From Bacteroidota bacterium (lineage in GTDB: Bacteria; Bacteroidota; Ignavibacteria; Ignavibacteriales; Ignavibacteriaceae): 52,766 nt of DNA. Positions 28,212 to 42,576 of the stretch are shown here, in pieces. How positions within the stretch are numbered: position 1 is the first letter of the stretch; each line of letters begins with the position of its first letter. The notes beneath the pieces were generated by a model. The model did no database searches and was not told the DNA's origin. It was given only the letters and a program-made list of their open reading frames with translations. A program made the translations under genes and the position numbers. Location of the stretch: contig JAKAJV010000140.1 in NCBI GenBank assembly GCA_021813585.1, positions 1 to 52,766 of the forward strand. The letters run 5' to 3'.

Positions 28212-30356
28212 TTATCGCAGAAGGATCATCTTCCTAATTTCAGAAAAATTTCCGGATGCCAATTTGTACAAGTAAACTCCGCTTGCCATCCCGCTTGCAT
28301 TCCACTTAACCTTATGCTCGCCTGCGGATTGGACTTCGTCAACTAAAGCTGCTATCTCCTGTCCTAAAAGATTATAAATCTTCAAAGTTGTTTTACCGCC
28401 GTTCGATAAAGTATATCTAATAACTGTCGAAGGATTAAAGGGATTCGGATAGTTCTGATTTAATTCATATTTAAAAGGCGCGGAAAAATTTACTTCAACT
28501 TCATTTGAATATTTATAACTGCCGTCGTAATCTATCTGCTTTAATCTGTAATAATAAACTCCGGCTGAAACCGATTTATCTATATATGAATATTGATGCG
28601 GCTGAGTTGAAGTTCCATTACCGGAAATAAAGCCAATCTTTTCCCATTCGCCCTGGCGGGGCGTATTCCGAAAGCTTTCGGAAGAAGCCCGCTGGATTTC
28701 AAATCCCTTGTTGTTTGTTTCAGTAGCAGTCGACCATTTAAGTTCAACTGAATTTTCAGATGGCTGAGCAGTAAAAGATTTTAATTCAACCGGAACAATT
28801 TGATCAAATCCGTTCTTAACGACATAATCGGTAACTACCTGGAACTCCGTTGAATCATGATAAACATATACATCGCTTACAGGTATATTGAACATAGTAC
28901 CGATCGCAGCGAGCACGAATTCATTTGTAGTAACAGAATAAGTTTTTGACAAATCCAGCGGACTGCCGCCAATCGTTATTCCGGTTACCCGGCTGCCTGC
29001 CGGATTAGATAAATTGCATGTATAAGTCATGCCGGAAACCTGCGGCAGAAATTCATCATTATATTGAACTTGAGATAAAGCCATTTCAAATGCCGTCAAT
29101 AAATCCAAACCCGTCATCTTAAAAGTTGCAATCCTATAGCCGAGACCGTTCACTTCATTGAATCCGTAGCCGATCATCCTAAAAATATCTGCTGCAACAA
29201 CGGGACCTTTGTATAACATTTGCGCAGTTGAACCGCCTACCGTAATGGCAACATCGGTATTAGTTTTCCATTTGAATGCTGTAGTTACCAGCTTACCCAC
29301 AGATGTTTCATAAGGACCGGGACCGGTTACATCGGCAGTATGGTCTAAATCAACAGGTGCATATGCAATCTGCTGTGTGTACACCGGACCATAAACGGAT
29401 TCGATTTCCGTTATCAAAGAATTTACTACGGCTTTTACTGTGGGTTCTTCCGGTATACTATTGTTAAGCTCAATTGACTGATAGCTGATTTCATTTACGC
29501 TGCTGCTACTTACTGCTAATTTTATTTCGCCTATGTTAGAATAAAATGCACCAGCCTGAACTATTAATGTTTTTTTACCCTCCGGATTTGTAACTTCAAC
29601 CGGCTGATTTAGAAGATAATGATCGTGAGCGCCGACTATTAAATTAATCCCGGGAATATAGCTTGCCAGCATTTCATCAACATTTAATCCGAGGTGTGAA
29701 AGACAAATTATCACGCTGCAATTTTCTGTTTTTAAAGTCGTAACCATTTCTGCGGCTTTCTGCATTAATGCTTCACCGCTTGTATCAATAACAACAGGGG
29801 AAGGAAGAGAAAGTATGGCAGTTTCGGGAGTCGTCATTCCGAAAATGCCTATCTTCATATTTCCCATTTGCTTAATAATATACGGCTTGATATAATTCTT
29901 TAATGATTGAACAGCGGGATCATCAAGAATAATATTAGCAGACAGCAAAGGAAAGCCGCCCGAAGGGAACGCCATCTTTAATGCTGTATCGAGTACGGCA
30001 GGAGTAAGATCGAATTCATGGTTGCCGACAGCCATCGCATCAACACCGATTGAGTTTAAAAGCTGAAGCTCTGCGGCGCCATAATAATAATTAAAAAACA
30101 TGTCGCCGATAAAGGAGTCGCCTCCATGTAGTACAAGGACGTTGGGCTCTGTCATCTTAGACATACCGATTACCGTAGCCGCTCTTGCTATTCCGCCCCT
30201 GGTTCCTTGCAAGTCCTCCGTTCTTGGTGCCAATGGTGCTAGGCATGAATGAGTATCGTTGAAGTGAAGGATTGTTAAAGTATCTACCTGAGCAAAAAGA
30301 TTCAGCGAAAGAATGACGAACAAAATAGAACAAAGCTTAATAGAAATGCGTTTCAT
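28212..30356 (-). CDS. 5'-nucleotidase/metallophosphoesterase (UshA-like) with T9SS tail
   Basis: 714 residues. Signal peptide 1-22 (ending LNLFAQ). A calcineurin-type metallophosphoesterase follows: LHFNDTHS, LHGGDSFIGDMF, AVGNHEFDLTP, CLSHLGLNVDEML and VGAHDHYL supply the two-metal ligands. The 5'-nucleotidase C-terminal domain has TDVAITVGGST and substrate-stacking segments (GYGFNEVNGLGYRIATFKMTG). A FN3-like linker and the sorting domain (LNQNYPNPFNPST, ending RKMILLR) end the protein. The family hydrolyses nucleotides, cyclic nucleotides or UDP-sugars outside the cell, probably for phosphate or nucleoside uptake. The linker carries the in-frame palindromic insert at 28659-28690. A motif shared with the lipid-like cluster lies about 90 bases upstream. 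Confidence 0.93.
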   Translation of the reverse strand: MKRISIKLCSILFVILSLNLFAQVDTLTILHFNDTHSCLAPLAPRTEDLQGTRGGIARAATVIGMSKMTEPNVLVLHGGDSFIGDMFFNYYYGAAELQLLNSIGVDAMAVGNHEFDLTPAVLDTALKMAFPSGGFPLLSANIILDDPAVQSLKNYIKPYIIKQMGNMKIGIFGMTTPETAILSLPSPVVIDTSGEALMQKAAEMVTTLKTENCSVIICLSHLGLNVDEMLASYIPGINLIVGAHDHYLLNQPVEVTNPEGKKTLIVQAGAFYSNIGEIKLAVSSSSVNEISYQSIELNNSIPEEPTVKAVVNSLITEIESVYGPVYTQQIAYAPVDLDHTADVTGPGPYETSVGKLVTTAFKWKTNTDVAITVGGSTAQMLYKGPVVAADIFRMIGYGFNEVNGLGYRIATFKMTGLDLLTAFEMALSQVQYNDEFLPQVSGMTYTCNLSNPAGSRVTGITIGGSPLDLSKTYSVTTNEFVLAAIGTMFNIPVSDVYVYHDSTEFQVVTDYVVKNGFDQIVPVELKSFTAQPSENSVELKWSTATETNNKGFEIQRASSESFRNTPRQGEWEKIGFISGNGTSTQPHQYSYIDKSVSAGVYYYRLKQIDYDGSYKYSNEVEVNFSAPFKYELNQNYPNPFNPSTVIRYTLSNGGKTTLKIYNLLGQEIAALVDEVQSAGEHKVKWNASGMASGVYLYKLASGNFSEIRKMILLR
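28659..28690 (-). repeat. palindromic element inserted in frame in coding sequence (copy 2)
   Basis: Identical to the copy at 21900-21931, including about 110 identical bases around it (about 28622 to 28730). It encodes the same ASSESFRNTPRQGE peptide in the linker of the 5'-nucleotidase. Confidence 0.8.
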
Positions 30357-30587: not shown

Positions 30588-31448
30588 ATGAAAAAGTTAT
30601 TGGATGATAAAGTTATTGTAATAGCCGGATGCTCAGGCGGAATAGGAAGCGCAGTTTTCAGAAAGCTTTTACTCCTTAACGCACAAGTTATAGGTATAAG
30701 CAGAACGGAAAACATCCACCTAAAAAATTTTGCAAAGCAGAACAACGTTGAATACAATTGGATTAAATCGGATCTTTCTTCCGCCTCCGGCTGGGAAAGC
30801 GCAATTCAATATATAAAAGACAGATTTGGCAAAGTAGACGCTTTAATAAATTGTGTTGGAATATTAGCGCCGGGCAAAATTGAATATCTAACTATTGATC
30901 AAATTGACAGAGTAATATCGACTAACTTTAACAGTCTAATCTATTCTTCAAAAGTTATCATCCCGGTTATGAAGCAGCAGGGATACGGTCATATTATTAA
31001 CATAGGCTCGCTCGGCGGAATAGTACCCATGCCGTATGAGACTTTATATAGCGCCACAAAATTTGCAGCCCGCGGATTTTCATTATCATTAGCAAATGAA
31101 CTTAAAGGTTACGGAATCAAAGTCAGTTTAATTTCACCGGGACCCGTATTAACGAAAATGCTGGCTATGGAATCTGTTGACCCGGATTCAACAATCGCGT
31201 TTGTGAACAGACCACTTCGGGCAGATATAATTGCAGACAAAATAATACAGACTATCTTTCATCCAAGGACTGAAGCGGTTCTTCCGGCGGCAGCCAAGCC
31301 GGCAGCGTTTCTTCTAAGCCTTTTCCCTCAGCTATTCCATCTCATCTTACCGGCGCTCAATCTTATAGGAAGCTGGAACCGGAGAAAATATTCTAAAACT
31401 ATGAATTGCTTAATCAACGAGGACGATTATGAAAACTCAATTAATTGA
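30588..31448 (+). CDS. short-chain dehydrogenase/reductase
   Basis: A 286-residue NAD(P)-dependent SDR. The cofactor loop is GCSGGIGSAVF (a variant of TGxxxGIG). NCVGIL replaces the NNAG motif, the catalytic Ser is in INIGSLGG and Tyr/Lys are in YSATK, so all four catalytic elements are present. The C-terminal 60 residues carry a hydrophobic amphipathic stretch (AAFLLSLFPQLFHLILPALNLIG), as in membrane-associated SDRs that act on lipids such as 3-ketosphinganine or mycolate reductases. It is the first gene of a tight operon and overlaps the next gene by 20 bases. In a pathway with an alpha-oxoamine synthase it would be the natural 3-keto reductase; this is inference. Confidence 0.88.
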   Translation: MKKLLDDKVIVIAGCSGGIGSAVFRKLLLLNAQVIGISRTENIHLKNFAKQNNVEYNWIKSDLSSASGWESAIQYIKDRFGKVDALINCVGILAPGKIEYLTIDQIDRVISTNFNSLIYSSKVIIPVMKQQGYGHIINIGSLGGIVPMPYETLYSATKFAARGFSLSLANELKGYGIKVSLISPGPVLTKMLAMESVDPDSTIAFVNRPLRADIIADKIIQTIFHPRTEAVLPAAAKPAAFLLSLFPQLFHLILPALNLIGSWNRRKYSKTMNCLINEDDYENSIN

Positions 31449-32415
31449 AAACAGATATCAGCTGTTAAGTTTTAACTTTGTTACGGCGTACGTCATCACT
31501 ATGCGCCCTTATTTAATGTTCGTCTCCGGCATTACAGGTATTGCCGGTTTGTCTTTTGGAGAAATGAGTTTCGTCAGCATTGTCTTTTTATTTTCCGCAG
31601 CATTTCTTTCTTACGGATTCGGACAAGCGCTTACAGACTGTTTTCAAATCGATACCGATTCAATTTCCTCCCCTTACCGCCCGCTTACGCAGGGATTGGT
31701 TTCACGCAGTCATATTTTATTTGTAAGCATTACCGGATTAGCATATTGCGTTTTGATTTATACTCTTTTTAATCCGGTAAACTTAATACTTGGAATAATC
31801 TCCGGATTGGGCTTAGCAACATACACGCCTTTTAAAAGAAAATGGTGGGGCGGACCGTTTTATAATTCATGGATTGTCGGGCTGTTATTCACGATGTCAT
31901 TTTTATCATCGGTAAACGCTTTGCCGGCATTTCATTCAAATAGATTTATACTTTCACTTTGCGCAGTCTTCTTCGGATACGCCAACTTTGTACTAAGCGG
32001 GTACTTCAAAGATATTTCTGCAGACCGTGCAACCGGGTATAACACTTTGCCGGTTGTCTTTGGCAGAAAGACTTCGGCTGTTATAAGCGACGTGCTTGCA
32101 TTTCTAACACTCGCTTTCGCCTTAGCAGCGATGCTAACAATTTTTAACGGTAAAAATTTGGGCAGCATTAAACTTATTTCATTCATGTTCTTAGCTGTTT
32201 CTGTAATAATTTCAGCTATTGCTCAAGTCCGCTTGCATTTGGTTAAGAAAGACGAGGAAGCACACAAATCAATTTCACTCGTTGTTCATGTGTACATTTT
32301 ATCTCTTTCTGCTATTGCTGCAGCAAACAAACCGGAGTGGAGCTTGTTTCTGTTTGCATTTTATTTAGTCTACCTCTTTGTGTTGAAAATACGACCTGCA
32401 AAAAATCAAATATAG
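31429..32415 (+). CDS. UbiA-family prenyltransferase
   Basis: A 328-residue integral membrane protein with about nine helices. The first Asp-rich motif is ALTDCFQIDTD (NDxxDxxxD type, with Gln-Ala-Leu-Thr in place of the leading Asn). The second is FKDISADRATGYNTLPV (DxxxD). UbiA enzymes join polyprenyl diphosphates to aromatic or polar acceptors in menaquinone, heme, chlorophyll or archaeal-type lipid synthesis. No menaquinone or heme genes are nearby, so the acceptor here is not a standard one by context. It overlaps the SDR by 20 bases, and the lipid kinase begins 8 bases after its stop. Confidence 0.88.
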   Translation: MKTQLIENRYQLLSFNFVTAYVITMRPYLMFVSGITGIAGLSFGEMSFVSIVFLFSAAFLSYGFGQALTDCFQIDTDSISSPYRPLTQGLVSRSHILFVSITGLAYCVLIYTLFNPVNLILGIISGLGLATYTPFKRKWWGGPFYNSWIVGLLFTMSFLSSVNALPAFHSNRFILSLCAVFFGYANFVLSGYFKDISADRATGYNTLPVVFGRKTSAVISDVLAFLTLAFALAAMLTIFNGKNLGSIKLISFMFLAVSVIISAIAQVRLHLVKKDEEAHKSISLVVHVYILSLSAIAAANKPEWSLFLFAFYLVYLFVLKIRPAKNQI

Positions 32416-32423
32416 GTGAGAAG

Positions 32424-33353
32424 ATGATAATTTTAATTAATCCGAATGCCTGTGGCGGAACAGCACTAAGAAAGTGGAACACAATCAAGCCGGAACTTTT
32501 GAATAAATTGAATAATCCTGAACTTGTATTCCTCAATGGGCGTCAGTCGATGCATGCGCTGGTTAAAGATGCTTTAATAAAGGGCGAAACCGAATTCATC
32601 TCGGCAGGCGGCGACGGCACACTGAATTTAATGCTGAACTCGATAATTAACATGTACGGTACAGATCGAATTGATAAGATTAAAGTCGGCGCTGTCGGGC
32701 TCGGCTCCAGCAACGATTTTTACAAGCCGTTTGCCTGGGGAAAATTGATTAATAATATTCCGGTTAAAATTGATTTTGAAAAACCTTCGCCAAGAGATGT
32801 TGGAAAAATTACTTTTACAACCGGCGGAAGAATTAAAACAAAATACTTCCTCATAAATTCAAGTATCGGGCTAACAGCCGAGGCGAACTATCTATTTAAT
32901 AACCCGGATAAAATTTTATCATCCTTAAAAAGGAAAAGCACATCTTCGGCTATAATTTATACAGCGCTAAAAAAGATTTTAAATTATAAAAACTTTAATG
33001 CGGAAATAACTTCCGGCGAGACGGGAAGATTTATAACAAGGATTACAAACCTTGGGATAGTAAAGAACCCGAATTTTTCCGGCGGAATGAATTACGGCTG
33101 CGAAGCAGATTACCGGAATGGATTATTCAACGTTCATCTTTGTTATGAGATGAATATGCCGGAAAGATTAAATTTGTTCCGGGCGCTTAATTCCGGAAAG
33201 TTTGAGCAGATAAAAAAAACAAAATCATGGACGACCGATAAGCTAACCGTAAAATCCTCCGGTCAATTCGCAGTTGAATATGACGGTGAAATAATTAGAA
33301 CAGACAAAGTTGAATTTTCAGTTTTACCAAGCTACATAAAGGTGTGCGGATGA
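32424..33353 (+). CDS. diacylglycerol/sphingosine-type lipid kinase
   Basis: 309 residues from ATG 32424. That start is chosen because ATAGGTGAG lies just before it and the family begins MIILINPNACGG; the open frame extends upstream into the UbiA gene. The catalytic domain of the DAGK/LCB5/YegS fold is marked by NPNACGGTALRKW, ISAGGDGTLN and GAVGLGSSNDF (usual GTGNDF). The C-terminal beta domain has VEYDGEIIRTDKVEFSVLPSYIKV, matching the 'DGE' segment of the family. It phosphorylates a lipid hydroxyl with ATP at the membrane; the substrate is not fixed by sequence. The stop overlaps the next start (ATGA). Confidence 0.88.
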   Translation: MIILINPNACGGTALRKWNTIKPELLNKLNNPELVFLNGRQSMHALVKDALIKGETEFISAGGDGTLNLMLNSIINMYGTDRIDKIKVGAVGLGSSNDFYKPFAWGKLINNIPVKIDFEKPSPRDVGKITFTTGGRIKTKYFLINSSIGLTAEANYLFNNPDKILSSLKRKSTSSAIIYTALKKILNYKNFNAEITSGETGRFITRITNLGIVKNPNFSGGMNYGCEADYRNGLFNVHLCYEMNMPERLNLFRALNSGKFEQIKKTKSWTTDKLTVKSSGQFAVEYDGEIIRTDKVEFSVLPSYIKVCG

Positions 33354-34378
33354 CGAATCAAATATTGGAAAACAATCTCGTAAATTTTCTAACAAATAAT
33401 TTCGCCCGCTCCCCGCTTCAAATTAATTGCTTGCACCAAAGCGATGCGGAAATAATAAAGACATGCGGCGGAAATTTAATTGCAGTTACAACCGACAGCA
33501 TTGCTGAAGAAATTGAAACCGGTTTGTACACAGACCCTTATTTAATCGGCTGGATGGCTGTTACTGTTAACTTAAGCGACCTAGCTGCTGTAGGCGCCGA
33601 GCCTTTAGGCATCTTAATTTCGGAAATTATCCCGCCGGCTTTCGAAAAAGACAAACTTGATAGAATGCAGAAAGGAATTTCCGATACATGTAAAAATTCA
33701 AACACTTTCGTGCTAGGCGGCGATACTAATTCCGGGGAGAAGCTTATTCTTACCGGTACGGCTTTAGGAACTTTTCCCGGAGGTAAATTCCTTACTAGAA
33801 CCGGCTGCAGACCGGGTGATCTTCTTTATGCCTCCGGCAAATTGGGCAAAGGAAATGCTTATGCAATTTCACAATTGTTAAATGCGGGCGAAGGCGGAAT
33901 TGATTACCTGCCGGCAGCCAGGCTGAATGAAAGCAATGTAATTAGGAAATTTGCCGGCGCATGCATGGATACCAGTGACGGAGTGATTTCGACCCTAGAC
34001 CAACTGATGAGACTGAACGGAACCGGATTTAAACTGGATGAAGACTGGATCAGCTCGATTGATAAGGGCTCTCTAGAGCTTGCCGAAAAGAACGGAATCC
34101 CGCCGTGGATGCTTCTTGCAGGCCAGCATGGCGAGTTTGAGCTTTTATTTACAATTCCTCCGGAAAAAGAAATTGACTTCCTGAATAAAGCCAGGCAGAC
34201 AGGCTGGCAGCCGGTTAAGCTTGGAAAAGTAATTCAAGATGTTTCAATTAAAATGAAGCTTTACGCAAGGCTTCGAACGATTAACAGTGCGACTATTAGA
34301 AATATTTCCTTTAACCTCAAAGAAGGAATTCAGGCTTATCTCCGCTCGCTATTAAAAATTGACCGGGAAATGAGGTAA
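33350..34378 (+). CDS. ThiL-like ATP-dependent kinase (AIR synthase superfamily)
   Basis: 342 residues from ATG 33350, which overlaps the kinase stop as ATGA; GTG 33344 would add two residues. It has the PurM/ThiL fold: AVTTDSIAEEIE, VNLSDLAAVGAEPLG (strongly ThiL-like), LGGDTNSG, TGTALGTFP, LLYASGKLGKGNAYA, DTSDGVISTLDQL and LLAGQHGEFELLF. ThiL makes thiamine diphosphate from the monophosphate. The usual GxHF substrate segment is replaced (TGLYTD), and no thiamine genes are nearby. It may therefore act on another phosphate substrate of this operon, or it may be the genome's only ThiL. Confidence 0.8.
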   Translation: MTNQILENNLVNFLTNNFARSPLQINCLHQSDAEIIKTCGGNLIAVTTDSIAEEIETGLYTDPYLIGWMAVTVNLSDLAAVGAEPLGILISEIIPPAFEKDKLDRMQKGISDTCKNSNTFVLGGDTNSGEKLILTGTALGTFPGGKFLTRTGCRPGDLLYASGKLGKGNAYAISQLLNAGEGGIDYLPAARLNESNVIRKFAGACMDTSDGVISTLDQLMRLNGTGFKLDEDWISSIDKGSLELAEKNGIPPWMLLAGQHGEFELLFTIPPEKEIDFLNKARQTGWQPVKLGKVIQDVSIKMKLYARLRTINSATIRNISFNLKEGIQAYLRSLLKIDREMR

Positions 34379-34409
34379 ATACCGGTAAAGCTTTCAGGTC
34401 GATTATTTG

Positions 34410-34425
34410 TTACATTTTTTTGACA
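34410..34425 (+). promoter_or_regulatory. shared upstream motif, copy facing the alpha-oxoamine synthase gene
   Basis: TTACATTTTTTTGACA lies 97 bases before the ATG at 34522, inside the 143-base gap after the ThiL-like gene. A second TGACA follows 17 bases later. This gap is the only place in the cluster large enough for an internal promoter. Confidence 0.5.
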
Positions 34426-34521
34426 AAACTTCAACCGCTCCCTGACATACTCCTAATTTAACTTTTCTATTTTTCCATCGTAAGAGCTTGAGCTTTGATT
34501 ACAATAAAGAAAGGAATAAAA

Positions 34522-35835
34522 ATGGAAAACAGCATAGAATATAACGGCGGAGAAAATTTCGACCTTCGCGAAATGCTTTTAAGAGGAAGGAATTTACGGC
34601 TGAATGAGAAAGTCGGATTATTCGAAAGCTTTATCGACGATTTAAACAAACAGAATGTAATGTTAAACATGCGCTGCATTACTACGGCAGCGGATAGGGA
34701 AGTAACTATTTTAGACCGCAACGGGAAAAAGAAAAATATGCTTATGTTCGGATCGAATAATTATTTAGGGCTTGCGTCCCATCCTTACGTTAGAGAAAAG
34801 GCTGAAGAGGCTATTCGAAAATACGGCGCCGGCATAGGCGGCCCGCCGCTATTAAACGGCTATACAATTCTGCACCGGCAGCTTGAAGAACGGCTTGCTG
34901 CGCTTAAAGGCGCCGAGGATGCTTTAATTTTTTCCAGCGGCTACGGAGCTAATGTCGGTCTGGTTTCCGGCTTAACCAATCCTAACGACGTAATTATTTA
35001 CGATGCGTTCAGCCATGCTTCGTTCTGCGACGGGATAAAGATGTCGGAAGTAAAGTCATTCCGCTTCCCTCACAACAACTTGAATTTGCTTAAGCTCAGA
35101 TTGGATCAGGCTGCTAATCAAACCGGCAGCGATGTGTATGTTGGTGTGGAAGGAGTTTATTCTATGGACGGCGATACGGCGCCGCTTGATAAGATCGTCC
35201 CTCTATGCAAATCAAAAGGCGCAATACTGCTGGTAGATGATGCGCATGGTACGGGTGTAATGGGAAGCAGAGGCAGAGGAACTGCCGAGCACTACAGAGT
35301 TGAAGGCAAAATCGATATTACCATGGGAACATTCAGTAAGACTTTTGCCGCCACGGGTGCTTTTGTTGCCGCCTCAAAGCCGGTTGTAGATTACCTCAGA
35401 TTTTTTGCCAGGTCTTATATGTTTTCAGCCTCGCTTCCGCCGGTTTCTATTGCAGTTGTTCTTGCCGGGCTGGATGTCCTCGAATCCGAGCCGGAATTAA
35501 TCAATCGATTAAATGACAATACAAAATATGCTGCCGAACGCCTTAACAGCTTAGGTTTTAATTTAAATCCGCAGACACCGATCCTTCCCCTGCGTGTGCC
35601 GATTGGAATGGACATAAGGAAAGCTGCATTAAAATTCCACGAGAAAGGCATCTTCGTCAATTCGATAGAGTACCCCGCTGTGCCTGTCTCCCAGCAAAGA
35701 TTCAGGATAAGTATTATGGCAACTCATACTAAGGAAGATATAAATAAGCTGATCGAAGTAATTGATGAGATATGGACAAGCTTTAAATCAAGTGAAAAAT
35801 GCGCTGCCAAAGAGTTTTGTTATGAAGCAGCTTAA
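34522..35835 (+). CDS. alpha-oxoamine synthase (serine palmitoyltransferase/BioF/KBL-like, PLP)
   Basis: 437 residues from ATG 34522 after AAAGGAA; TTG 34495 lies upstream but has no ribosome site. It is a PLP fold-type I enzyme: NYLGLASHP, GAGIGGPPLLNG, FSSGYGANVG, DAFSHASFCDG, VEGVYSMDGD, LVDDAHGTG and the Schiff-base Lys in GTFSKTFAATGAF. The N-terminal extension of about 60 residues is also typical of lipid-forming members. The family condenses an acyl-CoA or acyl-ACP with an amino acid and releases CO2. The end (FVNSIEYPAVP..QQRFRISIMATHT) is closer to serine palmitoyltransferase or cysteate-acyl transferase (sulfonolipid) types than to BioF in a biotin operon. The amino acid cannot be decided by eye. 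Confidence 0.85.
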   Translation: MENSIEYNGGENFDLREMLLRGRNLRLNEKVGLFESFIDDLNKQNVMLNMRCITTAADREVTILDRNGKKKNMLMFGSNNYLGLASHPYVREKAEEAIRKYGAGIGGPPLLNGYTILHRQLEERLAALKGAEDALIFSSGYGANVGLVSGLTNPNDVIIYDAFSHASFCDGIKMSEVKSFRFPHNNLNLLKLRLDQAANQTGSDVYVGVEGVYSMDGDTAPLDKIVPLCKSKGAILLVDDAHGTGVMGSRGRGTAEHYRVEGKIDITMGTFSKTFAATGAFVAASKPVVDYLRFFARSYMFSASLPPVSIAVVLAGLDVLESEPELINRLNDNTKYAAERLNSLGFNLNPQTPILPLRVPIGMDIRKAALKFHEKGIFVNSIEYPAVPVSQQRFRISIMATHTKEDINKLIEVIDEIWTSFKSSEKCAAKEFCYEAA

Positions 35836-35856
35836 TAAATTATAAAGGTAACAGCC

Positions 35857-37296
35857 ATGAAAAAGCCGAAGCTACTTATAATCGTTCTATTTCAAAATTT
35901 AATTGATGAAGAGCCGTACTATGCTCTAACGCCCGCTCCTCCGCTTCCGGGAATTTTATTAGCCGCCATTACGCCGCCCGTTGTTGATGTTGAGGTGCTT
36001 CATGAAATGGTAAGACCGGTTAACTACGACACGGATGCGGACTATATTGCAATAAGCTTTATGGACTACCTATCTACTCACGCATACGAAGTTGCAGAAA
36101 GGTTCCGTGCACTAGGAAAGGTTGTAATCGGCGGCGGTAAGTTTGCATCTACATTCCCGGATGAAGTCGAGCCGCACTTCGATTCGATACTTGTTGGTGA
36201 AGCGCAAAATGTATGGAGGCAAATGGTGTACGATTTGGTTGACGGCAATCTTAAAAAACGGTACACAGCCGAGCCGGTTCCCTGCCTGGAAAATATCCCC
36301 TCGCCCAGATACGACCTGGCTGAAAAAAAGTTCACGGTTCCTATTGTAATAGAAGCCTCCCGCGGATGCCCGCACTCATGCACATACTGCCAGCTTAATA
36401 TAAAGAGGCTGCCTTACAGAACTAGACCGGTAAGCGATGTAATAAACGACCTGAAAAGCTCAAGATCGCTTCCGTGGCATAAAAGGAAGATGGCAATGAT
36501 ACACGATAACCATTTCGGCGGAGATTTAAAAAATGCCAAAGCACTTCTAAAGGAAATTGCCAAGCTGAAATTTTGGGGAGTAGGAGTTCAGTATGGAATA
36601 GAATGCCTGCGAGACGACGAATTTGTTAAGCTTCTTTCAAAAGCCAATTGCAGGATGTCTTTTATCGGAATGGAATCGTTAAATGAAAAGAGCCTAGAAA
36701 GCGTTCAGAAAAAGCAAAATAAAGTTGAGGAATACAAAGAAGCGTTCGATAAGCTGCACCGAAACGGCATACTTACTTTCACCGGATTTATGTTCGCACT
36801 TGAGGAAGATACAAAGGAATATTACCAAAAGCTGCCCCGGATGCTGGATGAGGTCGGCGTGGCGGTTATACTTCCTTCAATTGCAATACCCATTTACGGT
36901 ACACCCCTTTACCAAAAGATGAAAGATGAAGACAGAATTACTGATTTCGATATTTCACATTACGAAGGCGACCATGTGGTCTTCAAGCATAATCATCTTA
37001 CTGAAGAAGAAATATATGAAGCTTACCGGAACGTGAACAGAATTTTTTACTCAAGAAGGAAAATCTTAAAACGGTGGCTAAAAATAATTTCAAGGCAGTC
37101 GATGAATGAATCGCTGCCGCAGTTTATACTAAAGCTACTGGTGGTAACATTTGTTTACTTCAAGCTGTCTATTTTTCAAAGGCATCACGCACAGAAGCGC
37201 GTGTTTAATCAAAGGAACAAGCTGGAGGATTTTCAGAGTAGTTTTAATAAAAATCCTGAAGCGGTTGAAAAGGAAACTGAAGCGGCAGTTATTTAA
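35857..37296 (+). CDS. B12-binding-domain radical SAM protein
   Basis: 479 residues. The N-terminal ~150 residues form a B12-binding-like Rossmann domain (FMDYLSTHAYEVAERFR, GKVVIGGGKFAS), without an obvious DxHxxG, so cobalamin may be bound base-off or not at all. The radical SAM core follows, with CxxxCxxC in ASRGCPHSCTYCQ, then GIECLRDDEF and GMESLNEKSLESVQKKQN. The C-terminal 80 residues are basic with a hydrophobic stretch, suggesting membrane association. Family members do C-methylation, ring closure or other radical steps on lipids, tetrapyrroles or hopanoids. It follows the oxoamine synthase by 21 bases, so it is likely to modify that pathway's product. Confidence 0.88.
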   Translation: MKKPKLLIIVLFQNLIDEEPYYALTPAPPLPGILLAAITPPVVDVEVLHEMVRPVNYDTDADYIAISFMDYLSTHAYEVAERFRALGKVVIGGGKFASTFPDEVEPHFDSILVGEAQNVWRQMVYDLVDGNLKKRYTAEPVPCLENIPSPRYDLAEKKFTVPIVIEASRGCPHSCTYCQLNIKRLPYRTRPVSDVINDLKSSRSLPWHKRKMAMIHDNHFGGDLKNAKALLKEIAKLKFWGVGVQYGIECLRDDEFVKLLSKANCRMSFIGMESLNEKSLESVQKKQNKVEEYKEAFDKLHRNGILTFTGFMFALEEDTKEYYQKLPRMLDEVGVAVILPSIAIPIYGTPLYQKMKDEDRITDFDISHYEGDHVVFKHNHLTEEEIYEAYRNVNRIFYSRRKILKRWLKIISRQSMNESLPQFILKLLVVTFVYFKLSIFQRHHAQKRVFNQRNKLEDFQSSFNKNPEAVEKETEAAVI

Positions 37297-37309: not shown

Positions 37310-39445
37310 TTAAAAAATTTGTCCAAAATTAAAGTACACTCCCGTTGTCTCTTTCCCAAGCCCCACATCAAGGCGAACGACGAAAGTATCCATATAAAAT
37401 CTCAGACCGAGCACCGGATTGTTAGCCCAGTCTTTAAGGTCCATCTTTCCTATGTCGCTCCAAACTTTTCCTGCGTCCATCCCAAGCACTGCGCCGAACC
37501 GCCAGTAAACCGGAAACCTAAGCTCTGCATTTATCAGCGCAGATGTCTTATCAAGATATCTATCCTGTCTATATCCTCTTAGTGTACTGTTGCCGCCTAT
37601 AGGCAGCAGAGCCTGCACAGGCAAATCTCCTCCGGTTAAAGACTGCAGGCTTGCCCTTAACGCAAAAATAGTTTTGGGATAAAACAACAGCGAGTAGAAC
37701 TGGAAGCTTCCTCCGTATCTGGAAAAAGATGTGTTTGTTATTGCCGTCTTCAGAGCGAACTCGGTTTCCCCCGAAAGCACCAATCCCTTCGATGGATTTA
37801 TAAAGCTGTTCCTTGTATCGTATCTTACCAAAAGATTTATTGAATTAAAGCTAACGCGGGACGAACTAAGTGAAGAAGGAAATAAAAGTAGTTTACTCGA
37901 ATCTCCGTAATTAAAGTTTCTAACTACCTTATATTTAATTCCGAATTGACCGACAAAATTTTTACTGAAACCTCGGCTTAAATTCAGATCGATTTCAAGC
38001 GGCTCTTTAGTATATTCCTCCAGATCGTCATATCTTGATTTGTTTCCCACACCGAAAAAGCTATTCCGAATATATTTGTCGTAATCAATAATAAAGTCCA
38101 GCGCCCAGGGATAAACCTTTCCCTGTCTCAATTCAAAGTCGGGTAGAGAAAAGACGAATCTATACCATCTCTCGCCCTTGGTGCTGTTAAATAATGTAAC
38201 GTCAAATGATTCGTTTTGACCAAGAAGGTTTAAGAAGAATGCTTTAGCGCCGTACCCGAATCCGACATCGGTGTCATAAGAAAAAATCGGCAGTGGCTCG
38301 ATTGTATGATCTTTATTCTCTGCAACAAAATCATATTCTTTTGGCGCATTATCAATTGCATCTTTTAAATTAATTTTTGCAATTACCCCGAAATGGTCGG
38401 AGGCATGTATACCGTTTGAAGCTGAATCAAGAAATATTTTATAATCAGCTATGTCATTCTTGTTAAAATGATGATCGGTAAATATGTAATCGATCCTTCT
38501 CGGCACGGCATCATATATTGAACTAAGTATATCGTATCCTTTTAATTTATTTCTGTCTGCATCAAAAAAATTTGTTGAGAAGATGACATTTTCATTCTCC
38601 AGTACATTCCAAGTATATTTTTCGGGCGTATTATTTTTAATGAATGCATCCGTTAATTTATTCTCTGCAATAAAGTATTTTAAGCTGCTGTCATTTGAAG
38701 CCGTATTAAAATCCCCGCCTATTATACAAGGATACTCCGGCGGAAGTTCTTTCAGTTTACTTGTCAACTCCTCAAACTCGGTTTTCTTCTTTTGAATTTT
38801 CTCATCACGTAATTCCAGAGCTTCACGGTAATCGCTTTCGCCAATGGAATTCTGTTTACGGTAGTTATTATATTTAACTATGATTGAAGTATCGTCCGGG
38901 ACATTGGCATTAAGATGAGCGTTGATCAGATAAAATACCGTTCCGTTTACTTTAATAGTTCCGATTAGAGCAAAGTTAGATTCGCTGAAATGGACAGTAA
39001 AAAGATCGCCGAATAAACCGAAAGAGCCAGATAATTTCCAGGTATCGAAATAATTTAAATTCAGCTTTGGGTTTGAAAGAATGGCGATTCCCTCTTTAAA
39101 GTTTGCGGGTATTCCAAACGAGCCGATCTTTATACCTGCATTACAAACCTGATGGATTTCATCGAATGAAAGCGAATCAGCCAGGCGCCGCGAAAATTCT
39201 CCGATCGGGTTTGCCTCCTGTAAAAAAATTACATCGGGGGATAACAATTTAATCTGCGAAAGTAAAATTTGAAAGCGCTGTTCTCTTCTTTCGGGCGTTT
39301 CGTATTCACCCATTTTAAACGAGCCGTTATAGTCCAGCCCCGACCAGACGTTTACAGTCGCAATTTTAAGGCTCCTGGTTTGGGCAGCAACTAAAGATGA
39401 AAAAAGTATTAATAAAGCAAGAACTTTCAAACCACACCTTATCAA
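37310..39445 (-). CDS. endonuclease/exonuclease/phosphatase domain fused to Omp85-type beta barrel
   Basis: 711 residues. Signal peptide 1-22 (LLILFSSLVAAQ). Residues 25-360 are an EEP (DNase I/sphingomyelinase/inositol-phosphatase) domain with Asn32 (ATVNVW), Glu77 (LQEANP), His177 (INAHLNAN), Asp245/Asn247 (GGDFNT), RRIDYIF and the final catalytic Asp350-His351 (SDHFGV), so it looks active. Residues about 385-711 are a BamA/TamA-like barrel, opening PIFSYDTDVGFGYGAKAF and containing the LRGY motif (GGNSTLRGYRQDRYL). No POTRA domain is visible. The layout recalls type Vd (PlpD-like) proteins, where an enzyme passenger is tied to an Omp85 barrel, but with a phosphodiesterase instead of a patatin. 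TTG start at 39445; its AAGG lies in the end of the regulator gene, implying coupling. Confidence 0.85.
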   Translation of the reverse strand: MIRCGLKVLALLILFSSLVAAQTRSLKIATVNVWSGLDYNGSFKMGEYETPERREQRFQILLSQIKLLSPDVIFLQEANPIGEFSRRLADSLSFDEIHQVCNAGIKIGSFGIPANFKEGIAILSNPKLNLNYFDTWKLSGSFGLFGDLFTVHFSESNFALIGTIKVNGTVFYLINAHLNANVPDDTSIIVKYNNYRKQNSIGESDYREALELRDEKIQKKKTEFEELTSKLKELPPEYPCIIGGDFNTASNDSSLKYFIAENKLTDAFIKNNTPEKYTWNVLENENVIFSTNFFDADRNKLKGYDILSSIYDAVPRRIDYIFTDHHFNKNDIADYKIFLDSASNGIHASDHFGVIAKINLKDAIDNAPKEYDFVAENKDHTIEPLPIFSYDTDVGFGYGAKAFFLNLLGQNESFDVTLFNSTKGERWYRFVFSLPDFELRQGKVYPWALDFIIDYDKYIRNSFFGVGNKSRYDDLEEYTKEPLEIDLNLSRGFSKNFVGQFGIKYKVVRNFNYGDSSKLLLFPSSLSSSRVSFNSINLLVRYDTRNSFINPSKGLVLSGETEFALKTAITNTSFSRYGGSFQFYSLLFYPKTIFALRASLQSLTGGDLPVQALLPIGGNSTLRGYRQDRYLDKTSALINAELRFPVYWRFGAVLGMDAGKVWSDIGKMDLKDWANNPVLGLRFYMDTFVVRLDVGLGKETTGVYFNFGQIF

Positions 39446-39448
39446 TGT

Positions 39449-40129
39449 TTACCTTACAAACTTATAACCGCTTTTATGCATCGTAATAATATGAACCGGT
39501 TCCGCGGGATAGTCTTCAATTTTTTTGCGGAGGGAAAGTATATAATTATCTACGGTACGTGTTGTCGGAAATGCATCGTAACCCCAAACTTCATCAAGTA
39601 GTTTATCCCTGGAAATTACTTCTCCTTCCCTTTCAATCAAGTATTTCAAAATTTTAAATTCAAGAGCCGAAAACTTGACAGACTTTCCGTTTTTTACTGC
39701 TTCCATTTTCTTAAAGTCCAGGCTTATGCCGTTAAAGCTGAATTCATCAATCTCTTTTGCCAGCTCATATTTGCGTCTCAGAATTGCTTTTATTCTTGCC
39801 AGCAGTTCTCTTATGCTGAAGGGCTTGGTCATATAATCGTCTGCGCCGGTTTCTAGGCCGAGTACCTTGTCGATTTCTTCCTTCTTGCTTGTCAGCATAA
39901 GAATGGGAGTATTGATATTATTCTTTCTCAGGTCGCGGCAAATCTCGAATCCGTCTTTGTTCGGCAGCATAACATCGAGGATGATAAAATCCACGTTCAT
40001 TGTTTTGCCTATCTTGAATCCTTCTTCGCCGTCGGAGGATGACAGAGTTGCGTACCCGTTTGATTCCAGGCTTGTAATAAGGCCTTTTAGAATTGCCGGG
40101 TCGTCTTCGACTATCAAAATTTTTTTCAT
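39449..40129 (-). CDS. OmpR/PhoB-family response regulator
   Basis: 226 residues. Receiver domain 1-120 with acidic pocket EDD, phospho-acceptor Asp52 (ILDVMLP), Thr in LTSKK and Lys in MTKPFS. The winged-helix output domain is at 128-226 (FSALEFKILKYLIEREGEVISRDKLLDEVWG, RTVDNYILSLRKKIED, GYKFV). It is translated from an ATG overlapping the kinase stop by one base (TAATG), and its own last codons hold the ribosome site of the EEP-Omp85 gene. It therefore probably regulates its own operon. No conserved direct repeat was identified as its target. Confidence 0.95.
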   Translation of the reverse strand: MKKILIVEDDPAILKGLITSLESNGYATLSSSDGEEGFKIGKTMNVDFIILDVMLPNKDGFEICRDLRKNNINTPILMLTSKKEEIDKVLGLETGADDYMTKPFSIRELLARIKAILRRKYELAKEIDEFSFNGISLDFKKMEAVKNGKSVKFSALEFKILKYLIEREGEVISRDKLLDEVWGYDAFPTTRTVDNYILSLRKKIEDYPAEPVHIITMHKSGYKFVR

Positions 40130-42576
40130 TACACTTCTCCCTTTATAAATGACAAAGTAAAAACACAGCGGTTGTTCTGCAAATAGTTTATTAATAATTT
40201 TCCTTTATGCGCAGTCATTATGCGGTCAACAAGAGCAAGCCCTATGCCGCTTCCCGGAATATTTTTCTTTTTTACGCTCCCGCTTCTAAAGTACGGCTCG
40301 GTAACTCTTATTAGTTCATCAGGCGAAAGGCTTGCACAGTTATTTTCAAAGCTTATATTAATTGAATCGGAATAATTGTCTAGTGAGACGACTACTTTTT
40401 TAGGATTTGCAGAGTACTTAATGCCGTTTGATAGAAGGTTTGTAATTGCACTTAAGATTAGCTCCGGATCCCCGCGTGTAAAGCATTCGCCTTCGCACAT
40501 ATGGGTAACTACCTCGCACTTATCAATTTTCATTTGATAAGACATTAACTTGACTGCGTGCTTTAGCAATGCTTCTAAATCTATATCGGTAAAATGAACC
40601 TCCTTTACCCCGCGCTCCATTTTCGAAAGGTCGAGCACATTTTCAATTAGCCTGCCAAGCCTGTCGCATTCGCCTTCAATAATTTCAAAATATTCTTCCC
40701 TATTGCCGCTTCCGGAACCGGAATCCAAATGAAGCAGTTCGGCAAACATTCTTATTGAAGTTAGCGGTGTTTTTAATTCGTGGGACATGCTGGAAAGGAA
40801 AAATGATTTCAACTCGCTAAGCTCTTGAAGTTTTTCTTTAAGCAGCTGCTCGCGTATCAGTTTTTCCTGGATATTTATCCTTTCGATTGTAAGCCCGGCC
40901 TGCAATCCTACCTCGATAAGCAGATCAATATCCTCAACTGAAAAACGCCCGCCGGATTTTTTTTCTCCTAATACCAAGAACCCCAGTATCTCGTCCGAAG
41001 TAGACTTAATGGGGAAGACCAAAGCAATGCCCCATCTTTTGAAAACCTTATAATCGGCTTCTTCTATCTGGCTGCCCGGCTCTACTTTATTAACCAAAGC
41101 AACGGGACTCGCCAAATTCGTCTTCAGGTTTTTCCTGTCCAGAAAAATGCTTCTCCTTCTTAAAATGTCAAAATTTTCTCCGACCTGTAAATAAATTCTG
41201 CTGTTGGCTTCGGAGAATAAAAAGAACCCCTGCTTTTCTACCGGTATTAATATTTTTATCTGCTCTGTAATCTTTTCGGCAAGAGACTGAATACTGCTGC
41301 AGTTCTTTATTTCATCCAGAAATTTTCTGGAGGCAATTCTGAAATCGTATTTAATCCTAAAAAATTTTCTGTCAATAATTTTTTGTATCCTATCCTTAGC
41401 GGGATAGAAAAGAAAAGCAATAATTACCGCGGCTACGCCGGATGATAAAAATTCGTTTTTAATATTTGCAAAGGTAGTTAGCGCCGAAATTACGGCGGCG
41501 TAAATAATCGCTACAAGGCCGATAGATAAGAAATAAATAACACTGCGCTGAATTATAATATCGATATCGAATAAGTGATATTTTAAGATAGCGATTGCAA
41601 ATGTAGCGGGTATAAACAGCATAAAGATCAGAACCATCTCTTCGGGAATCAATCCGTAGTTTGTAATAGCCTGCGGTACTACCCAAAGGCACGCAAACAT
41701 TAGAGGTCCCAGAATAAATCCGGTTAAAATCCATCTTAATTTTTTCTTTTCGGTTAAATCTGCGGAAGTAATATATGTGTGGATGGAAATTAAAAGTCCC
41801 GCAATTACACAAGCAGCCAGGTATACCCGGCTGATGTTAAAGATAAGAAGGTACTCACGTATAGCTGTTACTGCTGCCGAGGATACTGCTTTGATAAAAT
41901 ATACGGAAGCAAATATTGCAATAATAAAAGCCGTTAAATAAAGCAGAGCGGCAACAGTTTTTGCTTCTTTTTTTTCTCTGGGAAAGGTTAAAGTAAAATT
42001 GACAAAGAGCGCCGGAGCCATTGAGTAAGAAAATGAAAAGATTACTTTTAAGACAAAATCGTAGAATGCAGGAGGTATGCTGTAATAACCCCACGTCGTC
42101 ATAATTATAGAAGCGGTGCTAAGGTTAACCAAATGTAGAAGCTTTGCAGGCTTACTATCAGGTTTTTTCCACAAGACCAAAATTCCGATAAATATGAAAA
42201 GCATCCCGGTTATAAGCGCGGCAATTAAATAAAAAGCAGTATAGAAGCTTATTAAGCGGACGGGAACCGAATTTTCAATGCCTTTATCAGAATAATTAAT
42301 TAAAACATAGGAGCCCGGCTTAAAGCCGTCCAGGTATATCTCAACTTCATCTTTGGTAGAAAAGGTCCTCCCGTTAATCGAAACGACAGTATCGCCGGAA
42401 GGTATTATTATCTTTCCGGATAGATTCTGGTTAACAACGATGTGCGAATTTAAATTATAGAAGGTTAAAGGTAAGTCCGCCTTTTCGTAAACACGGTAAA
42501 TACCCAGCAAAGAAATGATAACTATAAAAAGATCAGCAGCAAGAAAAAGGGATAATAATTTTAATTTAACTTGCAA
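40129..42576 (-). CDS. multi-pass sensor histidine kinase with PDZ-like and GAF domains
   Basis: 815 residues. One helix (about 8-28) is followed by a PDZ-like periplasmic loop (SGDTVVSINGRTFSTKDEVEIYL) of about 80 residues, then about 9-10 membrane helices between 110 and 385. A GAF-type domain lies at about 410-560 (GFFLFSEANSRIYLQVGENF..ALVFPIKSTSDEILGFLVLGEK), then HisKA with SMSHELKTPLTS (His about 597) and HATPase (ITNLLSNGIKYSANP, GSGIGLALVDRIM). The kinase autophosphorylates and signals to the regulator downstream. A PDZ domain in the sensor suggests that it reads envelope protein or lipid stress. The next gene in the operon is an outer-membrane enzyme-barrel fusion, which fits. Confidence 0.93.
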   Translation of the reverse strand: MQVKLKLLSLFLAADLFIVIISLLGIYRVYEKADLPLTFYNLNSHIVVNQNLSGKIIIPSGDTVVSINGRTFSTKDEVEIYLDGFKPGSYVLINYSDKGIENSVPVRLISFYTAFYLIAALITGMLFIFIGILVLWKKPDSKPAKLLHLVNLSTASIIMTTWGYYSIPPAFYDFVLKVIFSFSYSMAPALFVNFTLTFPREKKEAKTVAALLYLTAFIIAIFASVYFIKAVSSAAVTAIREYLLIFNISRVYLAACVIAGLLISIHTYITSADLTEKKKLRWILTGFILGPLMFACLWVVPQAITNYGLIPEEMVLIFMLFIPATFAIAILKYHLFDIDIIIQRSVIYFLSIGLVAIIYAAVISALTTFANIKNEFLSSGVAAVIIAFLFYPAKDRIQKIIDRKFFRIKYDFRIASRKFLDEIKNCSSIQSLAEKITEQIKILIPVEKQGFFLFSEANSRIYLQVGENFDILRRRSIFLDRKNLKTNLASPVALVNKVEPGSQIEEADYKVFKRWGIALVFPIKSTSDEILGFLVLGEKKSGGRFSVEDIDLLIEVGLQAGLTIERINIQEKLIREQLLKEKLQELSELKSFFLSSMSHELKTPLTSIRMFAELLHLDSGSGSGNREEYFEIIEGECDRLGRLIENVLDLSKMERGVKEVHFTDIDLEALLKHAVKLMSYQMKIDKCEVVTHMCEGECFTRGDPELILSAITNLLSNGIKYSANPKKVVVSLDNYSDSINISFENNCASLSPDELIRVTEPYFRSGSVKKKNIPGSGIGLALVDRIMTAHKGKLLINYLQNNRCVFTLSFIKGEV

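Follow-up and report, generated by a model that had tools for sequence, protein, structure and literature searches.

Omp85 proteins are known as assembly or translocation machines. The gene described here, which lies in a 52,766-nucleotide stretch of Ignavibacteriaceae DNA (the whole of the stretch analysed, hereafter the window), joins an EEP domain to an Omp85 barrel, and raises the question of whether the barrel anchors, exports or gates the enzyme.

One frame encodes an EEP domain and an Omp85 barrel

A single open frame of 711 codons on the minus strand, opening with TTG 39445 and closing with the stop at 37310, carries both PF03372 and PF01103 (Table 1). The first-pass annotation had given the product as 711 residues; the 711-codon frame exists, but TTG 39430 appears the likelier start from the sequence, which would shorten the protein to 706 residues, because AAGG precedes it by six bases and the ATG of L046, the nearest relative, aligns at this codon. 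Residues are numbered below on the 711-codon frame.

Table 1. Coordinates of the fusion gene, its parts and its neighbours in the window
Feature	Coordinates	Strand	Remarks
EEP-Omp85 fusion gene	37310..39430	-	706 aa from TTG 39430; 711 aa if TTG 39445
AAGG, Shine-Dalgarno-like site	39437..39440	-	six bases before TTG 39430; direct sequence reading
Putative signal peptide	39383..39430	-	about residues 1-16, ending ...SSLVAAQ; hydrophobic N-terminal stretch judged by eye in sequence and alignment
EEP (Exo_endo_phos, PF03372) catalytic domain	38393..39361	-	residues 29-351 of 711; Pfam, AlphaFold2 model, fold matches
Linker	38273..38368	-	about residues 360-391; without POTRA; weakly conserved up to residue 383
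Omp85 barrel (PF01103)	37313..38299	-	residues 383-711; entry motif E-LPI-SYDTD conserved; C-terminal Phe
LRGY, Omp85 loop 6 motif	37571..37582	-	residues 622-625 (L622-R623-G624-Y625)
Sensor histidine kinase (HK)	40129..42576	-	815 aa; overlaps RR by one base (TAATG); Pfam, NCBIfam
OmpR/PhoB-type response regulator (RR)	39449..40129	-	226 aa; Pfam Response_reg and Trans_reg_C; NCBIfam YycF/PhoB-like, under equivalog cut-offs
Lipid-type cluster	30588..37296	+	SDR (KdsR-like), UbiA, DAGK/YegS kinase, ThiL-like, serine-palmitoyltransferase-like AOS, B12 radical SAM
UshA/5'-nucleotidase-type phosphoesterase, T9SS sorting domain	28212..30356	-	recurrent neighbour of EEP-less barrel

The join is a real protein architecture, and apparently an undescribed one, since it recurs in many related genomes. 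A search for the EEP domain in 391 genomes of the window's class (Ignavibacteria; E<=1e-8) matched 21 of them, and in 19 of the 21 EEP and barrel share one frame. Frames of 626-898 aa with barrel are present in 17 of these 21; in G557 and G433 a partial EEP and the barrel share a frame (a contig end and a frame break within EEP, respectively), in G397 the two parts lie on separate contigs, each cut off by the contig end, and G368 has only a 95-aa EEP fragment. Full-length fusions are carried by 18 genomes, the source genome included, and the 17 homologues (39-61% identity) align the end of EEP and the start of the barrel at the same place. An assembly or annotation artefact merging two genes, which the first-pass annotation had named as one way in which its reading might fail, might be suspected from a source assembly of 142 contigs and from relatives broken by stops, frameshifts or contig ends; these 17 full-length homologues in other genomes, with their aligned domain borders, make it vanishingly improbable, and for practical purposes refute it. 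Scanning viral contigs with the fusion profile gave 24 pattern matches, none of them a relative. No description of an EEP-Omp85 fusion was found in the open-access (not subscription) literature, covered partly as titles and abstract starts, and the main text of PMC3482391 has no mention of Omp85.

The EEP domain has the features of an intact enzyme

The Pfam match to PF03372 spans residues 29-351 and scores 48.5 bits, above the cut-off of 24.5 (E=1.2e-12). N32, E77, H177, D245, N247, D350 and H351 (N27, E72, H172, D240, N242, D345 and H346 in the 706-residue numbering), which we take to be the metal and catalytic residues of the EEP superfamily, are invariant in all 18 full-length fusions aligned. 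These 18 are the 21 fusion rows minus L097, L098 and L100, which are N-terminally incomplete or broken; with the broken copies included the counts are 18/18 for N32, 19/20 for E77, 20/20 for each of H177, D245 and N247, and 21/21 for both D350 and H351. The AlphaFold2 model of the domain (pTM 0.80, mean pLDDT 72.6) shows the four-layer alpha/beta EEP fold and reaches Z scores of up to 24.3 to EEP enzymes. Predicted fold and catalytic set together support an intact enzyme domain, in agreement with the first-pass annotation, which had named the same residues.

The free-standing Omp85 barrels found in the class could suggest another role for the domain. The barrel is present in 50 class genomes, in 24 of them as a free-standing frame of 355-474 codons; these free-standing barrels are the nearest relatives of the fusion barrel, and the EEP label switches about six times on the barrel tree, gains and losses not being told apart. 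Such a pattern would suit an EEP that serves as an accessory or sensing domain without turnover, tuning a barrel that itself works in transport or assembly, but a non-catalytic domain would hardly need seven invariant catalytic positions and we regard this reading as highly improbable.

Known neutral sphingomyelinases and TDP2 share the EEP catalytic set. Both have the same fold as the modelled domain, at about 17-21% identity, and tie in Z (24.3 each; rmsd 3.2 over 267 aligned residues for human neutral sphingomyelinase, 2.6 over 241 for TDP2), but neither type is fused to a barrel. TDP2 comes first in the Foldseek E-value order and shares a TW...N motif with the fusion EEP in the alignment. 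Among solved sequences the best EEP match of the fusion profile is beta-hemolysin (E=1.1e-9), presumably a sphingomyelinase-type enzyme, followed by TDP2 at 4.3e-7, while the Bacillus cereus sphingomyelinase (E=0.0018) falls behind TDP2 and nocturnin. The single-sequence NCBIfam matches lean to exodeoxyribonuclease III, far under cut-off. Because sphingomyelinase and TDP2 tie in Z and Foldseek puts TDP2 ahead, the modelled fold does not choose a substrate. Free-standing EEPs with 29-34% identity to the fusion occur in three MAGs, two of them spirochaete and one unclassified (L003, L005 and L006); they share with it the block NVW-G-D--G-FKMGEYETP and, unlike it, are exported-looking proteins of about 370 aa from which the barrel is absent.

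The barrel belongs to Omp85 and lacks POTRA

By profile the C-terminal half is an Omp85 member: PF01103 matches residues 406-669 (E=1.3e-20; 74.6 bits against a cut-off of 24), and R623 and G624 of the loop 6 motif and the C-terminal aromatic F711 are kept in all 21 fusion rows. The score against the NCBIfam family NF047779 (Omp85_fam), 125.4 bits, is below its cut-off of 200. No POTRA (PF07244) was matched in the fusion up to E=1; the same profile library found POTRA in the patatin-Omp85 protein of the source genome (L119). EEP and the conserved start of the barrel are about 25-30 residues apart, with no POTRA between them, so the description of a POTRA-less barrel with LRGY in the first-pass annotation was borne out. 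The full-length AlphaFold2 model, built on a six-sequence alignment, has a mean pLDDT of 44, with 20-43 per ten-residue block in the barrel. A profile alignment reaches the barrel region of 9ccg (E=2.6e-20). A hydrophobic-alternation script marked 17 strand-like windows in the barrel, 12 before LRGY and five after; the number is compatible with 16 strands, without proving them.

Other enzymes joined to Omp85 barrels

The type Vd protein PlpD, offered by the first-pass annotation as the only well-known analogue, resembles the fusion in layout, with an N-terminal enzyme attached to an Omp85 barrel at the C-terminus (PMC11116518). PlpD carries a patatin serine hydrolase with POTRA between enzyme and barrel, whereas the fusion has an EEP metalloenzyme and no POTRA; a patatin domain was not matched in it up to E=1. 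The source genome also encodes a separate patatin-POTRA-Omp85 protein (L119).

A closer analogue is the 'Metallo' subfamily of Heinz and Lithgow (2014; PMC4104836), in which a PF00149 domain is joined to the barrel, so PlpD does not stand alone. The subfamily is named for a metalloprotease there; PF00149, the entry cited for it, is Pfam's calcineurin-like phosphoesterase, and that main text contains no word beginning 'endonuclease', 'phosphatase' or 'phosphoesterase'. As in the fusion, an N-terminal metal-dependent enzyme is joined to an Omp85 barrel, and 'Metallo' is likewise absent from the subfamilies listed with predicted POTRA. It was suggested to descend from barrels without N-terminal domain ('noNterm'; PMC4104836); the fusion too is nearest to free-standing barrels. 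The enzyme fold differs, being PF00149 in one and EEP in the other, and PF00149 was not matched in the fusion up to E=1. A scan of four long Omp85 frames of this phylum showed two (L064 and L067) to be of the 'Metallo' kind and, at 1211 and 1240 aa, longer than the fusion.

The PlpD layout (PMC4104836, PMC11116518) could also suggest type Vd-like autotransport, with the barrel exporting EEP over the outer membrane for display or release, as the secretion or surface display put forward in the first-pass annotation would have it. A linker of about 25-30 residues might be long enough to thread the lumen, and other window proteins, a phosphoesterase among them, have T9SS sorting domains. Omp85 barrels, however, begin with their N-terminus on the periplasmic side, and the EEP-less relatives of this barrel need no passenger. 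The analogy itself also turns against export, the patatin domain of PlpD having been shown to be periplasmic (PMC11116518), and we consider autotransport unlikely. By this precedent, and because the barrel starts so soon after EEP without an intervening POTRA, the EEP domain probably lies on the periplasmic side.

A two-component system accompanies the fusion in several families

In the window the fusion follows HK and RR genes, the gene order given by the first-pass annotation. The TAATG overlap that it described exists, at 40129, between HK and RR and not between RR and fusion; 18 bases separate the RR stop from the fusion start (3 if TTG 39445 is used), and the fusion has its own Shine-Dalgarno-like site. 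Co-linear HK relatives were found at 21 loci, the window included. Counted with a tblastn check where the upstream flank reaches at least 4.5 kb (at 16 of the 22 fusion loci and 14 of the 22 barrel loci), HK lies upstream on the same strand in 12/16 fusion loci and RR in 13/16, which supports a context conserved across families. The 22 fusion loci include the broken or cut ones of G397, G433, G543 and G623. HK lies beside 6 of the 14 EEP-less barrels and RR likewise, two of the six, L004 and G311, being near-copies that share one neighbourhood. Since HK-RR also accompanies EEP-less barrels, and RR and barrel are often separated by other genes, the fusion can no longer be called the main output of the kinase. 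With HK on the same strand upstream in most fusion loci, we infer that the adjacent HK-RR regulates the fusion.

The small OMP lying between RR and fusion (L027, PF13568) matched only one other locus (BLAST, E<=1e-4), and we therefore do not count it as a regular part of the neighbourhood. In a Pfam scan of ten proteins, seven neighbours were without a match.

Neighbouring genes and the substrate

The main rival to a lipid substrate is phosphate or nucleotide scavenging, in which EEP would be a nuclease or nucleotide phosphodiesterase freeing nucleotides for the T9SS 5'-nucleotidase to dephosphorylate, with the barrel anchoring it or passing the products. The models nearest to HK and RR (PnpS/PhoR and YycF/PhoB in NCBIfam, all below cut-off) point in this direction, as does a fold as close to TDP2 as to sphingomyelinase. 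A phosphate-regulon identity of the pair was rejected: RR scores 205 bits against the PhoB model TIGR02154 (cut-off 296), and another regulator of the genome, on contig C96, scores 233. Nor was a Pho-box-like site seen by eye in the HK upstream regions of five same-genus rows, one of them of 30 bases. The 5'-nucleotidase is no more than 3 kb away from the barrel in 9/15 EEP-less loci, and to this extent its presence weakens the case for a lipid by pointing to phosphate or nucleotide use, but it is mostly absent near the fusions, occurring in 3/16 (Fisher p=0.03, with no correction for relatedness; loci flanked on each side by at least 2.5 kb). Scavenging is thus possible, but we judge it rather unlikely.

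The link to lipids comes from the lipid-type, sphingolipid-like cluster that adjoins the fusion in the window. Its UbiA is found no more than 5 kb from the barrel in G000, G097 and G543, a divergent but similar lipid set is found directly downstream of the fusion in G315, and a weakly GNAT-like gene adjoining the fusion in G543 is homologous (36.5% over 375 aa) to the gene adjoining the free-standing EEP of L006. Those three are a third of the nine genomes with a strong UbiA match; among the 42 genomes searched 32 gave no match, and in 6 of the 9 strong ones UbiA is not on the barrel's contig. The cluster is therefore near the barrel in a minority of loci only, and no lipid genes were seen beside the free-standing EEPs L003 and L005. 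A lipid substrate is credible at slightly less than even chances.

Proposed function

As a tentative reading, to which we give somewhat less than even weight, the fusion would be a phosphodiesterase that is anchored in the outer membrane, faces the periplasm, probably acts on envelope lipids and is set by the co-encoded HK-RR. The signal peptide would send the protein through Sec, and the POTRA-less barrel would insert in the outer membrane as anchor of a secreted-type EEP phosphodiesterase. The N-terminal EEP would remain periplasmic, next to the inner leaflet, like the patatin domain of PlpD, and may cut a phosphodiester in the envelope of its own cell, the likeliest target being the head group of a phospholipid or sphingolipid (phospholipase C or neutral-sphingomyelinase type chemistry). 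HK and RR would set its expression. For a phosphodiester turnover of envelope lipids that a two-component system controls, the fusion is a concrete candidate.

PlpD has been put forward as a model of how an enzyme may act on outer-membrane lipids from the periplasm, and that work suggested that the Omp85 scaffold also holds enzymes at the outer membrane (PMC11116518). This enzyme-holding would become a general principle with a further catalytic fold on an Omp85 barrel that several families of one class have kept. More doubtful is a wider proposal: that outer-membrane-anchored EEPs under orthologous HK-RR pairs trim, from the periplasm, the phospho(sphingo)lipids of their own cell's outer membrane. 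They would be a bacterial counterpart of neutral sphingomyelinase, tethered by Omp85, and would belong with several unrelated hydrolases (patatin, calcineurin-type, EEP, peptidase MA) to those that adopted the Omp85 barrel as an anchor, not as a secretion pore.

The fusion is one polypeptide that recurs across the class

The minus-strand frame with its stop at 37310 encodes a signal peptide, an Exo_endo_phos (EEP) domain (Pfam 48.5 bits, cut-off 24.5) and an Omp85 barrel (74.6 bits, cut-off 24) in a single polypeptide, which bears out the first-pass annotation on the protein. No POTRA domain was matched by Pfam up to E=1. The start is likely TTG 39430, giving 706 residues, because AAGG lies six bases ahead of it and L046, the nearest relative, has its ATG at that place in the alignment; residue numbers here follow the 711-residue version beginning at TTG 39445.

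That the two halves might be an assembly join is contradicted by the other genomes: we found the complete fusion in 6 of 80 genomes of the family (the window's own, G315, G308, G307, G148 and G359), with 59-60% identity across residues 6-711 in G315, G308 and G307, which belong to the window's genus, and also in G259, from another family of the class. An EEP-domain query matched 21 of 391 class genomes at E<=1e-8, and 17 of these carry EEP and barrel in one frame of 626-898 residues, the EEP end being incomplete in G543 and G623. Two further matches retain the EEP end fused in frame to the barrel: G557 lies where a contig begins, and in G433 the frame breaks inside the EEP. The join is only likely in G397, because EEP and barrel are truncated at the ends of two different contigs; and the G368 match is a 95-residue fragment with a stop. 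When 395 genomes drawn from the phylum were searched with the EEP profile, only four matched at E<=1e-20, all of them with fusions and all from the window's class. Elsewhere, EEPs of this type turned up as three free-standing proteins, two from spirochaete MAGs and one from an unclassified MAG. The fusion is thus neither a chance event nor an assembly join.

A barrel query matched 50 of the 391 class genomes at E<=1e-30: 20 with an EEP, 24 free-standing (355-474 codons), one decayed (G311) and five partial, whose N-terminus could not be judged. On a tree of 39 barrels, one branch (97/92) sets 21 fusions and five free-standing barrels apart from the rest, and the fusion label changes six times, against 13.3 in shuffles. 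The fusion of G577 and the free barrel of G120, from one genus, are sisters. The simplest history would be a single EEP gain followed by repeated loss, a direction that the unrooted tree does not itself give.

The EEP domain and the barrel

Asn32, Glu77, His177, Asp245, Asn247, Asp350 and His351 are invariant in all 18 full-length fusions, as are Thr278-Trp279, Asn284 and Asp319. A model of the domain by itself, built together with the three free-standing EEPs, reached pLDDT 72.6 and pTM 0.80. Human neutral sphingomyelinase (Z 24.3, rmsd 3.2, 267 residues, 17% identity) and TDP2 (Z 24.3, rmsd 2.6, 241 residues) matched it equally well, ahead of Bacteroides EEPs (23.4), nocturnin (23.1), a Bacteroides mannosyl-6-phosphatase (22.9), PDE12 (21.7), bacterial sphingomyelinases (about 21) and E. 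coli ExoIII (20.1); Foldseek's own ranking placed TDP2 on top. Against solved sequences, the single fusion sequence gave no significant match; the fusion profile matched beta-hemolysin, a sphingomyelinase-type enzyme, at 1.1e-9 and TDP2 at 4.3e-7, but B. cereus sphingomyelinase far less well (0.0018). These comparisons establish the EEP fold; candidate substrates are lipid head groups on the one hand and nucleic-acid-type diesters on the other.

A profile of 39 barrels matched the barrel part of the solved chain 9ccg (E=2.6e-20, 257 profile positions), through the YDTRN--NP turn and the GG-N-LRG motif, and no other solved chain at E=0.01. Lipid-facing residues alternate in 12 windows before LRGY and five after; Omp85 proteins have five strands after LRGY. 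The total, one above 16, is compatible with a 16-strand barrel but is not proof of it.

Gene neighbourhood

Features in the window and in other stretches
Feature	Location	Strand	Remarks
EEP-Omp85 fusion (from likely start)	37310-39430	-	
Response regulator, OmpR/PhoB-type	39449-40129	-	
Histidine kinase	40129-42576	-	
Lipid-type cluster	30588-37296	+	opposite to fusion; between 5'-nucleotidase-type gene and fusion
UshA/5'-nucleotidase-type protein, T9SS-sorted	28212-30356		7 kb downstream of fusion
Hybrid two-component frame	24127-25950	-	
Hybrid two-component frame	25866-28181	-	overlaps the preceding
Patatin-POTRA-Omp85 protein	L119:1392-4181	-	window's own genome, C56
PF00149-Omp85 fusion	L064:1666-5301		1211 residues
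PF00149-Omp85 fusion	L067:1689-5411		1240 residues
Decayed free-standing barrel	L004:5830-6999		
Long kinase frame	L096:10286-18001	-	G387; at least 2571 residues, runs off stretch end

Kinase, regulator and fusion stand in tandem, as the first-pass annotation had it, but the TAATG it placed in this operon joins kinase and regulator, which overlap by one base, and the fusion starts 18 bases after the regulator (3 from the upstream TTG). Among loci with at least 4.5 kb upstream (16 of 22 fusion loci), fusions have a co-linear kinase upstream on the same strand in 12/16 and a regulator in 13/16; EEP-less barrels have each in 6/14. Gene order suggests that the adjacent pair governs expression of the fusion.

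In L055 (G311) and L004, whose neighbourhoods are near-identical, a decayed free-standing barrel with many stops follows an apparently intact kinase-regulator pair. The C-terminal third of the L096 frame is the kinase of the fusion system. The two hybrid frames together resemble one protein (Reg_prop repeats, Y_Y_Y, then HisKA, HATPase, receiver and AraC HTH), the second holding only the end of Y_Y_Y, and were probably split by a frameshift, biological or from assembly.

The lipid-type cluster encodes a KdsR-like SDR, UbiA, a DAGK/YegS lipid kinase, a ThiL-like protein, a serine-palmitoyltransferase-like AOS (369 with its best model, NF047600, whose cut-off is 640) and a B12 radical SAM protein; its product may be a sphingolipid-like lipid. 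Similar sets lie near the same barrel family in G097, G315 and G543. In G315 the set is divergent and directly downstream of the fusion (ThiL-like, SDR, radical SAM/SPASM, UbiA-like, FMN oxidoreductase, AOS and, by its N-terminus, a lipid-kinase-like frame). A search of 42 barrel genomes for the cluster UbiA matched 10, nine of them strongly (E<1e-20); in three of the nine (G000, the window's own, G097 and G543) it lies within 5 kb of the barrel on the same contig, and in the other six on another contig. Random placement within 20 kb in a 4-Mb genome gives p of about 1e-5 for 3/9 and 1e-3 for 2/9, rough values that ignore shared descent. A weakly GNAT-like neighbour of the G543 fusion is homologous to the gene product beside L006's free EEP (36.5% over 375 residues); among the neighbours of the L003 and L005 free EEPs, no lipid genes were recognised.

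Proposed site of action and substrate

The N-terminus of an Omp85 barrel faces the periplasm, and here a tether of about 25-30 residues, without POTRA, links EEP to barrel. Passages of a study on PlpD, the one enzyme-Omp85 protein for which we found a topology test, report that its patatin domain stays in the periplasm, that it forms dimers and that its deletion raises phospholipids (PMC11116518). By analogy with that periplasmic domain, the barrel-anchored EEP domain would most likely work at the outer membrane's inner leaflet.

A nucleotide substrate would agree with the tie of TDP2 in the fold comparison and with the linkage to the 5'-nucleotidase; such a T9SS protein lies within 3 kb of the barrel in 9/15 EEP-less loci versus 3/16 fusion loci (Fisher p=0.03, relatedness ignored). 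In favour of a lipid stand the match to sphingomyelinase-type enzymes and the linkage to the lipid cluster; the substrate may be of this kind.

Relation to other enzyme-Omp85 proteins

By profile, the fusion is a member of both the EEP family and the Omp85 superfamily. Type Vd (PlpD) proteins carry patatin and POTRA, whereas the fusion has neither and is ruled out as type Vd; lacking PF00149, it is likewise ruled out as a 'Metallo' Omp85. It may nevertheless work in the manner of either. The passages of Heinz and Lithgow on ten Omp85 subfamilies name no EEP domain (PMC4104836), and we found no published EEP-Omp85 fusion in the open-access literature, to which the search was confined.

The window's own genome also encodes a PlpD-like protein (L119), and in L116, L117 and L118 (C138, C36 and C140) barrels with a peptidase-like N-terminus: Peptidase_MA_2, below cut-off in L118, and PD40 propeller repeats, with Omp85 recognised by Pfam in L116 and L118 and by genome search in L117. 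When four long Omp85 frames from the same phylum were scanned, two (L064 and L067) proved to be of the 'Metallo' type, with a calcineurin-type phosphoesterase.
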